DNA of 61,282 nucleotides from Verrucomicrobiota bacterium. GTDB taxonomy: Bacteria > Verrucomicrobiota > Verrucomicrobiia > Limisphaerales > JACQFS01. The notes below the pieces were generated by a model. The model made no database searches, was not told the origin of the DNA, and saw nothing but the letters and a program-made list of their open reading frames with translations. The position numbers and the translations under genes are program-made. Shown one piece after another: positions 14,537 through 20,023 of this stretch; within the stretch, counting starts at the first letter, position 1; the number at the start of each line of letters is the position of its first letter. Location: assembly GCA_016199935.1 (NCBI GenBank), contig JACQFS010000044.1:1-61282 (forward strand), in the 5' to 3' direction.

Positions 14537-17500
14537 AGACCGTCCTCGTCGGTGGACCAGAATTCGCCGAGGAACATATCGCCCTGCCACGCGGTGATGC
14601 GATGGCAGACGCTGGTCTTGGCGCTCTTGGGCTTGAGCAAACGCACCGACGCCTGCCCGAGTTCGTCAAAATCCGGCGCGCGCAAATCCTTCGTCACCGT
14701 GCCGTCGTCGAACGTCACGCCGCCGACGTGAACGCCCACCCGCACAACCACGTTGGGAAGGATCGGGTGAACCACGAGGCCCATCTCGATCAGCTCGCTG
14801 CCGTCGGGATACGTTTTCATGAGGCGGAGATAAACCCGCGAGCTGGCGTGGATCTGGAAGCCGTCGGCAGACGTGGCGGTGGCGATGGGGCCGTTGGTGC
14901 CCGCGCGCGCCACGAGGCCGCGCGGTTCCGGCGCGTCCACGGTGAGTCTCCATTGCGCCGCGTCCGCAGTCGCGTCCGCCATCGGCTCCAAGGTCGCGCG
15001 CGGGTCCGCTTCAATGACCGCGCTGGAGGGAACATCCGGCGTGCCCCACAACCGCGATTTGCCCGCCCATGCCGCCGGGGCCGCGCCGAAGGACGCCTCG
15101 ATCACTTTCACGGTGATGCTCCGGCTGGTCGTAGAGCCGTCTGAAGAAAAGAAGGACGCACTCACCGCGAAGTCGCCCGTTTGATCGAACTGATGCGGAA
15201 CCGGCTCGCCGCCCGCGACCTCCTGAGAGCCGGACCCCGCGATTTCGATGCGCGCTTTGCCTTTCGCCTCGGTTTGCGGCGCGGCGGTGAAGAGCAGCGC
15301 GTCGCCTTTGCGAATCACGAGATCGCCCGCGTTGAGCAGGTTGACCGGACGCCAGACGACGCGGTTGGTCAGAATCAATCCTCCATTCTGGAACGAGCAG
15401 ACTACGGTGCTTTCCTGTCCGGCTTTTAAGGGCGCGGCGGCGAACCAGCGCGAGCCTGCTCCCGCCTGCGGAACGAGGCCGTCTGAAATCCCCATCATGC
15501 TCAGGTAGCCGCCGCGCCCTTCGAGGCACGCGGGCGAAACCAGACTGGCGACGGTTCCCTTTTCATTCGCGTCCACGGAGCAGAGGTATCGCAGCCGCTT
15601 CTCGACCCACTCGCTCACGCCGCTGGCGTTCACGCGAATGCCCTTGATGGATTGCAGGCGAATGGCCGCGAGTTCGAGCGAGCGATAGGAGGCGACGTTG
15701 TTCCAATAGATGCGGACGCGATGCTCGCCGGCCCGCAGCCACGGGGTGTAAGTGTTCACCTCGCCGACGCCCTCCGGCGGCGCGGTCAAAATCGAGCGGG
15801 CCAAATATTCGCCATCCACGGAAACCAAAAGCTGGAAGTCGCGGTTGGCATCGCGCCGAATGAAAGAGCCGCCCGTGATTTGCAGCCGGAACATGTCCGC
15901 CTCCGGCACATTGAGCAGATACTCCACCGCGCCGCGCCGGTCCTCGGCGTGAATGGTTTCGCCCTCCGCCTTCCACCGGCCCAGCGTCGAAATGGTTTTT
16001 GCGCCGCTGACTTCCGCCACCGTCTTGACGCCCAGCGTGTCGCGCGTCAACGGGTCGCTGCCCATTTCGCGAACCTCAAGGTAATCGGAAAGCCCGTCCC
16101 CATCGGAGTCGGGATTGCGCGGATCGGTGCCGGCGAGATATTCCTCCAAGTTGGTCAGGCCGTCGTGGTCGAAGTCTTTCCGGGCATCCGTCGGGTCGAG
16201 CGGATTCAAGCCGTGCTTGACCTCCCAGCCATCCGGCAACCCGTCGCCATCGGTGTCCGGGTTATGCGGGTCGGTGCCGGCGAGATACTCCTCAAGATTC
16301 GTCAAGCCGTCACCGTCCGGATCGGCCTTGGCGTCGCTGGCGTCGAAGGGATTCAGTCCGTGCGCCACCTCCCACGCGTCGGGGATGCCGTCGTGGTCCT
16401 TGTCTTCGAGGTCGGTGAAGTTTTTATGGCTCGGTGAGTAAAGCTGCGATTGCGGGATGGGCTGCAACGGCGTGTGCGGCCCGCTCCACAGCAGGCGCAG
16501 TTGGGCGGCGGCACCCGCGTGGTATTCGACTTGCAGCGCGTAGCGATGACCCTCCAACAGGTTGACGCGCGCCTTCTTCTCCCGCAGCGAGTGCGCCTTC
16601 CACTCGTCAATCACCAACTTCCCATCGAACCACACGCGCGCCCCGCCCGCGCTGAGGAGGTGGAAATCGTATTCCTCGCTGTGCTGCGCTTCTACCCAGA
16701 CGACGACGCCGACGAGCACCTCCGGCGGGATCGGCACGCTCAACTTCCCGCGCCAGTTCCAGTTCGTCCCGTCGGGCGAGGAATACGCGGTGAAGTTCGG
16801 CCCGCGCCGGAGCAGGCGCACCCACGGGTCGCTCGTGGAAATTTTTTGCCCGATGTCCACCGGCGACGAGGCCGTGCGGCGATGCTCAAAGCGCACGCCG
16901 CCGCTGATGCTCACCGTGAGCGAGACGAAGGGCGCGTCCGCCGCGAGGCCTTCCCGGATCATCACGCCCGCGCGGCCCAGCGGGCTGTCCACGGCGTCCT
17001 GCTCGACGTGGGTGATGAGTTCCGCGTCGCCACTCCACGGCTGCCAGACGTAGCTGGCCGAGTCGGCGTTGCCGCCGACATCGAAGCCGGCGCTCTCGAT
17101 CCGCAGACTGCCGCTGACACTCGCCACCGAACGCGGCGCGGCGGTTCGTCCGAGATCCGCGTGCTGCCACGGCGAGGGAAGCTTGATCGCGTCGGCTTGT
17201 TCCTTCAGCGCGGCGAGGGCGGGGTTCGGCGTCTCCGGCCGCGGCGGATAAAGTTGCGACTGCCGGACGACCTGTTTGGGAATGGAGGGGCTGCTCCACG
17301 ACAACTTCACGCGCGAACCTTTGCCCTCGTCGGCGTATTCGAGCTTGATGGGATACTTTTTTCCCGCCTCGAAGTTGAACGTGGCGCGCAGTTCGCCCTC
17401 CGGCGCGGCGTCCCATTGCTCGATCACTTTGCGGTTGCCGATCCAGAGGCGGACCTTGCCGCGCGCTTCGAGATAAAGGGAATGCGTCTCCGTGAATTGC

Positions 17501-18471: not shown

Positions 18472-19215
18472 TTACATGCTCATGTGGCTCACGGCGTCGC
18501 TCCAATCGCTGTAGCCGGTGGTGCCGCCGACGGCGCGGAACTCGAAGCGATACATCGTGCCCGGCGTCAGGCCGTTGACGGGCATCGCGCGCGAGTTGGT
18601 GAAGAGGCCCGCGTTTTGCAGCGGCCCGGCCGCCCCGCCCGCGCCGAGGGCCGCGTAGCGTCCCTCGTAGCACTTCGCGTTGGGCACGGGCTTGACCTTG
18701 ACGAGCAACTGGCCGGAGTTGCCGTTGTTGATTTCCGCAATCTGCGGCTTGGGCAGCGGCTGTTTCGCGCGGCTGGTGCTCACCGCCTCGAAGCCGCTGC
18801 CGAGCAGCGTGGCCAGATCGCCGCCGGACTTGTCCTGCACGTAGGCGGCGAGTTGGCGCAGCAGGGCCACGAGCGCGTCGCGTTTGTTGTTTTTATCGGC
18901 CGTCGCCGCGGTGCCGCCCTGTGCCTGCCCGGCGATGGCGTCGGTGAAGGCGGTCAGGCCCGCTTGCAAGGCGACCTTCGTCACGGGCGGGGTGGGGAAG
19001 GCGGGCTTGCCGTAGAGGTTGTCAATGACGGCGCCGGCCGTTTCCTCAAGGAAATGGTCGGGCGCGTTGACGAAGCCAAGGAGGACTCGGAGGGTGCTCA
19101 TTTTTTTGTGGGGTTGAGGTTCAGGAACATTACCGCCCCAGACGAGGCCAGGATCCCCCCAGCGAAGAGGGGTGCCGTCCGGGTGGGTGCCGTTCCAAGT
19201 GAGGGGAGTGGGCAT
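18472..19215 (-). CDS. Fibronectin-III-like protein, first gene of the secreted cluster
   Basis: A 247-residue protein with a long helical middle (about 40-150). It ends in a fibronectin type III-like domain (about 155-245: PVPNAKCYEGRYAALG, GLTPGTMYRFEFRAVGG, SDWSDAVSH). No signal peptide is seen. A second possible start is the Met at residue 39 (MSTLRVLLGFVNAPDHF). The first 38 residues, rich in Trp, Gly and Pro, may be a real short domain or a separate small gene. It sits 21 bp before the PA14/TSP3 gene. Confidence 0.68.
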   Translation of the reverse strand: MPTPLTWNGTHPDGTPLRWGDPGLVWGGNVPEPQPHKKMSTLRVLLGFVNAPDHFLEETAGAVIDNLYGKPAFPTPPVTKVALQAGLTAFTDAIAGQAQGGTAATADKNNKRDALVALLRQLAAYVQDKSGGDLATLLGSGFEAVSTSRAKQPLPKPQIAEINNGNSGQLLVKVKPVPNAKCYEGRYAALGAGGAAGPLQNAGLFTNSRAMPVNGLTPGTMYRFEFRAVGGTTGYSDWSDAVSHMSM

Positions 19216-19390
19216 CGGTCAAGGTGGAGGGTGGAGGGTTGAAGGTTGAGCGCGGGGACCCGGGTGCGGCTGCCAGTCCCGGCCTTTCCGGGTGGGAAAA
19301 AGGCGTCCGGCCGCCGGTTGACGGGCGTTTCGCGGTGGAAAAGTTCCTTTTCCGGCCTTTTCGCGCGTTTTTGGGCCGTGGAGATAACTT

Positions 19391-19622
19391 TGTCCGCCTC
19401 GGACAAGGCTTTCTCCGTCTCGGAAAAGGTTTTGTCCGGGGCGAAATAACCTTGTCCGAAGCGGACAAGGTTTTGTCCGCCATGGGAAAGGTCATCTCCG
19501 GCGTGGAGAAGGTTAAGTCCGGGCTGGAGATGAGAAGGTCCGTGGCGGACCGGCTTATGTCCGTGCCGGACACGCGAATGTCCGCCGCGGATAAAACCAT
19601 GTCCGTGGCGGAGAGAATTGCC
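19391..19622. repeat. Array of 21-bp palindromic units
   Basis: Eleven TCCG cores start at 19393, 19414, 19435, 19455, 19476, 19497, 19518, 19539, 19560, 19581 and 19602, every 21 bases with one 20-base step. Most units form a small palindrome, TTGTCCG-N3-4-CGGACAAGG. Because units are palindromic and 21 bp long, both strands read as heptapeptides (like SADKVLSA on plus and LSASDKV on minus). The 20-base step breaks every frame, so no single gene covers the array. It may be a decayed heptad-repeat gene, a DNA-protein binding array or a structured RNA. Confidence 0.75.
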
Positions 19623-19719
19623 CGCGAGCCGGACAAGGTCGTGGCCGGGCCGGCAAAAAGTGCGGGCCGAAGGGCGAAAACCTTCGGCGGTTGAAAGGGC
19701 CTTTTGCCGGCCGTCGCCC

Positions 19720-19750
19720 GGAAACAAAAAGGCTGCCGGGAAGGGCAGCC
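19720..19750 (-). terminator. Rho-independent terminator (minus strand)
   Basis: GGCTGCC-6-GGCAGCC (19731-19750) is followed, reading on the minus strand, by TTTTTGTTT. It would stop transcripts coming from thrH before they enter the 21-bp array and the secreted-protein cluster. Confidence 0.7.
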
Positions 19751-19806
19751 TGGGGTCGTTGCGGAAATCGATCGAGAGACTTGCGGCCATCGCCGCGCCG
19801 GCACTA

Positions 19807-19870
19807 TTGCGCGGTTGCGCGGTTGCGCGGTTGCGCGGTTGCGCGGTTGCGCGGTTGCGCGGTTGCGCGG
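19807..19870. repeat. Octamer microsatellite (TTGCGCGG)x8
   Basis: Eight perfect head-to-tail copies of an 8-bp unit. Perfect identity suggests a young, slippage-prone tract. Since 8 is not a multiple of 3, copy changes would shift any frame through it, but no convincing gene crosses it. Confidence 0.93.
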
Positions 19871-20023
19871 TTTTGAAACGCAGACAACACCTCAGTTGTC
19901 GAGAATCCTTTCATGGCTTGCGGAGGCGTTTTTGGACCTTCGCCAAAATAAGTCAAGACGGATTTTCGCCGGTGCGGGATTTTCCGGGCCGCGAGTCGCG
20001 GGCGGAGGCGTGACGGAAGGGGA

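Follow-up and report, generated by a model that had tools for sequence, protein, structure and literature searches.

Arrays of palindromic DNA units with a 21-bp period lie upstream of two families of small uncharacterised genes

The locus

We examined a 61,282-nucleotide contig of a Verrucomicrobiota bacterium (assembly GCA_016199935.1, contig JACQFS010000044.1), hereafter the window. Features are listed in Table 1. Other contigs of the same genome are given as C numbers, loci as L numbers and other genomes as G numbers. At the centre of the locus is a tandem array of short mirror-image units. On one side, and transcribed away from it, is a gene encoding 247 amino acids. On the other side is a terminator-like hairpin reading towards the array. 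This would separate array and gene from transcription coming from 19800 and above. However, the hairpin is weak evidence; one was found where 2.4 were expected in shuffled sequence. No promoter was called in the window itself.

Table 1. Coordinates of the array, its neighbours and related features.
Feature	Sequence	Position	Strand	Description
Repeat signal	window	about 19344-19696		Full extent of the periodic signal
Array	window	19384-19660		21-bp-period dyad-symmetric units, consensus near TCCGnnnCGGACAAGGnTTTG; edges degenerate
Core units	window	19393-19612		
TCCG cores	window	19393, 19414, 19435, 19455, 19476, 19497, 19518, 19539, 19560, 19581, 19602		Starts of the 11 cores
Outlying TCCG	window	19351		42 bp before the first core
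20-bp step	window	19435-19458		TCCG at 19435 to TCCG at 19455; shifts any heptad reading frame
Gene	window	18472-19215	-	W/D/P-rich N-terminal extension, predicted helical bundle, predicted C-terminal fibronectin type III (FN3) domain
Interval	window	19216-19383	-	Between array and gene
Terminator-like hairpin	window	19730-19751	-	Far side of the array, reading towards it
8-mer repeat	window	19807-19872		Eight perfect TTGCGCGG 8-mers followed by CAGACAACACCTCAGTTGTC
W/D/P-rich stretch	window	19100-19215		In the N-terminal region of the gene product
Array-linked proteins with W/D/P-rich stretch	L215; L260; L278; L224	399-1223; 6666-7628; 5542-6249; 3853-4497		Seemingly unrelated proteins
Small collagen-like genes	L278; L224; L215	6514-6936; 4772-5392; 1-296		MPFDPTKPAxxxPxxxAxxRAQFN...
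Array without family gene	L261 (C112)	15120-15477		Clean 21-bp units with the window's motif
Acido-Lenti-1 RNA matches	L002	2001-2047 and 2146-2189		RF01687, in opposite orientation
c-di-AMP riboswitch	L260	1458-1622		RF00379

A preliminary description, made from the sequence alone, reported eleven TCCG cores at 21-bp intervals with one 20-bp step, in palindromic units readable as heptapeptides on both strands. This observation was confirmed. We also identified a twelfth core in the same register. The longest such chain in the window is 12; in 30 first-order Markov simulations of the window the mean was 2.6 and the maximum 4. Tandem Repeats Finder reported the array as 21- and 62-bp units, and the repeat signal extends a little beyond the limits first given. 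The palindromes are real, with consensus TCCGnnnCGGA and a column-permutation p at the floor of 0.016. The array has open frames on both strands in places.

A DNA search of the same genome found a second full copy at C138 (79% identical over 279 bp) and a cleaner array at C112. The C138 copy includes the gene and the interval before the array, and keeps the 20-bp step. Between the two copies the loop of the palindrome is 58% identical while the arms are 80% and 89% identical, as expected when the arms are under constraint. The genes flanking the C138 copy differ. Hence, the location beside a secreted-protein cluster, remarked on in the preliminary description, looks incidental. Two Acido-Lenti-1 RNA matches lie just beyond the C138 copy. 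A c-di-AMP riboswitch lies about 6 kb from an array at C151, and is probably unrelated. The array at C112 has no family gene beside it and may be a relic or a target in trans.

Arrays recur upstream of a gene family in two phyla

To determine if such arrays recur, we first searched 293 genomes of the order using a 292-base array as a DNA query. Arrays were found in only four genomes including this one. All hits outside this genome lay close upstream of a homologue of the gene at 18472-19215. Recurrence beside such homologues, which the preliminary description had proposed as a check, proved abundant. We located family members with a profile and scored the DNA on either side for repeats at every lag from 12 to 40. 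Upstream, lag 21 was the best lag in 95 of 137 members and lag 22 in 8. A total of 91 upstream regions passed the strong threshold; 84 at lag 21, 5 at lag 22 and 2 at other lags. Downstream of the same genes, lag 21 was best in 9 of 143 and strong in one. Members in one genome are not independent, so these counts are not phylogenetically corrected. About a third of family members lack a detectable array. The loci include Chitinophagaceae (L108) and other genomes of its order. Hence, the pattern spans Verrucomicrobiota and Bacteroidota. The preliminary description expected the same TCCG motif elsewhere. Instead, the motif changes and the period is what recurs.

Arrays with a 22-bp period occur at L171, L146 (G850) and L170 (G888), and also at L118, L141 and L149. 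In G850 and G888 the paralogues share this period, which hints at a genome- or clade-set period.

A second gene family

A scan of contigs of the source genome, made without reference to genes, found 21-bp arrays beside other genes. Three of these lie upstream of one further family (MKRxxYYPxRxGDQxxWLxN...), which has no Pfam or NCBIfam match. We searched for that family in 245 genomes and repeated the lag test. Lag 21 was the best upstream lag in 20 of 27 members, 18 of them strong, and was not among the leading downstream lags. Comparison of the two family profiles showed only a weak match in the FN3-like part (probability 10%). Hence, the families are unrelated only in the sense that no relationship has been shown. 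Several arrays have no such gene beside them (C112, C5:8076 and C132). Small collagen-like genes, part of neither family, follow array-linked genes or arrays in three places.

As a background, we examined 674 unselected genes in 1.02 Mb of the same genome. There were 8 array-gene adjacencies (about 1%), all at lag 21 and none at lags 18-20 or 22-24. Three of the 8 are beside genes of the same class. Over 1.17 Mb the lag spectrum was 23 at lag 21 and 0 at lags 20 and 22, although a few of these regions were chosen because arrays were known there, and some lag-21 hits are coding repeats.

These data bear on whether the arrays are neutral minisatellites, that is tandem duplications that happen to fall upstream of these genes. 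Unit sequences are indeed arbitrary and concerted, and array edges are degenerate on both sides. However, there is one period (21 or 22 bp), one side of the gene, two gene families, two phyla for the first family and a background of about 1%. Conservation is also uneven between columns of the unit (see below). We consider this explanation very unlikely.

Period and symmetry persist while sequence varies

The unit sequence differs from member to member, and motif similarity tracks protein identity. Above 60% protein identity, 62-88% of pairs share a motif; below 40% few or none do. Conversely, close paralogues can carry unrelated arrays. L198 and L201 are 83-84% identical paralogues (84% in DNA from -179 through the gene), yet their arrays are unrelated.

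Of 844 steps, 835 were exactly one period, although array calling favours in-phase repeats, so the rarity of indels is partly built in. Palindromicity exceeded column permutations (p <= 0.05) in 50 of 85 arrays, where about 4 are expected; the remaining 35 showed no significant palindrome. Column conservation was uneven in 62 of 67 arrays and concentrated on dyad-complementary columns (0.784 against 0.704, t 5.4). Units two apart were more alike than neighbours (0.689 against 0.648, t 4.3), so many arrays have a 42-bp superperiod. Both ends were equally degenerate, with no polarity of growth. There was no intrinsic curvature or 10.5-bp composition signal.

An alternative is that array and gene form a mobile or freely copied cassette, with the array as recombination end or copying scar. 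Consistent with this, families are multi-copy (8 members in this genome, up to 9 matches elsewhere) and homology between copies often stops just after the stop codon. A dispersed 8-mer repeat element also lies beside several arrays. Near-identical copies (94-97%) of the element in the window occur at C37, C138 and C151, each with a 21-bp array nearby. However, no sharp common ends were seen on the array side and motif similarity decays with protein divergence, as in vertical descent. Single-protein searches found no viral, phage or plasmid relatives. The cassette reading is unlikely.

The arrays are not supported as coding sequence

The first reading in the preliminary description was a decayed heptad-repeat protein gene. 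In its favour, 21 bp is seven codons, some frames are open and there is a weak 7-bp composition harmonic. However, 24 of 90 arrays at homologous positions have no open frame at all, 22-bp arrays occur and the frame-breaking step is shared by a paralogue. The 9 indel steps found among the 844 are all -1 or -2, in a search that did not cover shifts of 3. A long open frame through the array, expected of such a gene, was not found. We conclude that the heptad reading is an effect of 21 being seven codons.

RNA structure is not favoured

A second reading was structured RNA. As RNA, the array in the window folds far better than shuffles on both strands (z -8.7 and -10.1), as any palindromic array must. 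Unit order lowers the energy for this array (z -2.3 sense, -3.1 antisense) but matters only marginally overall. We used three tests that separate RNA from DNA. First, same-unit pairing appeared in excess (39 of 50) when the pairing phase was chosen on the same statistic, but with the phase chosen on cross-unit pairing the excess vanished. Hence, there is no within-unit covariation. Second, G.U was not preferred over A.C on the gene strand. Third, sense and antisense folding energies were equal over 68 arrays (34 favour sense, t 0.02). Rfam has no match for the array. Terminators between array and gene, as occur in ToxIN, were seen at 14 of 89 loci in the sense direction and 9 in the antisense direction, against 3.8 in shuffles.

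The array could nevertheless be transcribed as a repeat RNA that works on the downstream protein, as in type III toxin-antitoxin loci, or form multi-hairpin RNA. The relative position is that of ToxI/CptI repeats (PMC4627078), and sequence changes fast while the protein is kept. Given the absence of RNA-strand signatures, and of any toxin match among the proteins (see below), this is unlikely.

Alternatively, the array could work as DNA secondary structure, either cruciform or single-strand hairpins, used by a recombinase, nuclease or replication factor and rebuilt locally by template switching. Self-complementarity without strand preference, palindromes in unrelated sequences, exchange of arrays while the adjoining gene stays alike and duplication of genes and arrays in the genome are consistent with this. 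However, hairpin selection would leave within-unit covariation, which was not seen, and not all arrays are significantly palindromic. No recombinase was seen beside the arrays inspected, and no plasmid or phage relatives were found. This reading is also unlikely.

Promoter-like matches and the encoded proteins

Promoter-like matches were not more frequent than in shuffles overall. However, they peak 100-149 bp before the start codon, between array and gene (22 against 10.5 expected), while arrays end at a median of -249. This places the array upstream of the likely promoter, though the evidence is modest and statistical over the family.

An AlphaFold2 model of the family protein, made with seven sequences, is a helical bundle plus an FN3 domain (mean pLDDT 78; 88 for the N-terminal domain alone). 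Of 37 members compared with Pfam, 28 matched fn3 (PF00041) at E 0.01 or better. For the protein in the window the match is weak (E 0.0036, below the gathering score). FN3 structures align at Z 6-7.7. In Foldseek/VIA searches the N-terminal bundle matched only four-helix bundles (best Z 8.6), within the range regarded as a common arrangement, and no DNA-binding fold was found. The proteins are not markedly basic, with a median pI of 7.8 (6.3 for the N-terminal domain). Among the 37 members there were only FN3-type and other immunoglobulin-like matches and no toxin family. The array-linked genes scanned matched no PADLOC model. Members of several array-linked families share, by eye, a W/D/P-rich N-terminal stretch (for example LTWNGTHPDGTPLRWGDPGLVW in the window, FFLDDPNNRWCDP and FWDDPTKTWDQPGLTW), possibly a common tag.

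Interpretation

The interpretation in the preliminary description is partly supported. Of its three readings, the phased binding array, with 21 bp being two helical turns, is the best supported. The best interpretation is that the array is a non-coding, DNA-level element of about 12 dyad-symmetric sites, placed every two turns of the double helix upstream of the promoter of a small-protein gene. We give this roughly an even chance of being correct. Our analysis demonstrates the fixed period, the position upstream of two seemingly unrelated gene families, palindromic units in most arrays, conserved arms with variable loops, and the absence of coding and of RNA-strand signatures. Protein binding, cooperative assembly and control of the gene are inferred. 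In this view, symmetric and probably dimeric DNA-binding proteins would occupy successive units on one face of the helix, forming a cooperative nucleoprotein stretch that controls the neighbouring promoter. Because the unit sequence differs from gene to gene and can be replaced wholesale, each array probably acts as a private address. This would be read either by co-evolving binders or by a factor that recognises spacing and symmetry more than sequence. We identified no binding protein, and the neighbouring FN3 protein is not obviously the binder. Unrelated arrays beside close paralogues are hard to reconcile with a simple cis-encoded specific binder. The arrays with no significant palindrome, the arrays with no such gene beside them, the family members that lack a detectable array and the lack of a 10.5-bp composition signal also count against this interpretation.

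A bolder possibility, held only tentatively, is a genome-wide class of cis-element whose conserved property is a format, two-turn period plus dyad symmetry, and not a sequence. Each gene of a diverse small-protein class would have its own private array, and an unidentified machinery would build or read arrays by geometry. Homology search cannot see such arrays; the DNA search found them in 4 of 293 genomes, whereas following the gene found them beside most family members. If confirmed, the finding gives a handle on a large unannotated class of FN3-type proteins and a direct test of whether DNA geometry can act as an address.

Comparison with known systems

Known repeat systems in bacteria are recognised by conserved sequence (CRISPR, iterons, REP) or by one protein family (type III toxin-antitoxin). 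Here, spacing and symmetry are conserved while sequence is free, across two phyla for the first gene family and across two gene families with no known function. We found no description of such arrays in literature searches, which covered open-licence papers only. We regard the arrays as a new kind of element because no known system fits. However, if a known type of operator-binding protein proves to read them, they would more fairly be seen as a variation on that type.

In plasmid Rep iterons, ParR/parC, SopB/sopC centromeres and other multi-operator arrays, tandem DNA sites lie near the gene, at spacings close to whole helical turns, and are often dyad-symmetric. The arrays described here share the whole-turn spacing. 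However, there one array goes with one known binder and a conserved sequence. Here, there are many chromosomal arrays per genome, each with another sequence, beside FN3-type proteins with no Rep, ParA or ParM-like role seen. Array-linked genes of the two families have no Pfam match to Rep, ParB, ParR or similar binders.

Type III toxin-antitoxin systems (ToxIN, CptIN, TenpIN) also have tandem repeats directly upstream of a small protein gene, and the repeats vary much more than the protein (PMC4627078). Their units are 36 or 45 nt (PMC4627078). Across such systems, units of about 34-48 nt form RNA pseudoknots and the toxin is a Kid-like RNase of the ToxN, CptN or TenpN families. Here, units are 21-22-bp dyads in about 5-18 copies with no strand preference, and the proteins are of FN3 type.

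CRISPR arrays likewise have short, partly palindromic repeats at fixed spacing. Here, however, the whole 21-bp unit is the repeat, with no conserved repeat family between loci, no unique spacers of about 30 nt and no array polarity. REP/BIME and other dispersed palindromes are also chromosomal and intergenic. Those share sequence across a genome, whereas the arrays described here share only period and symmetry.
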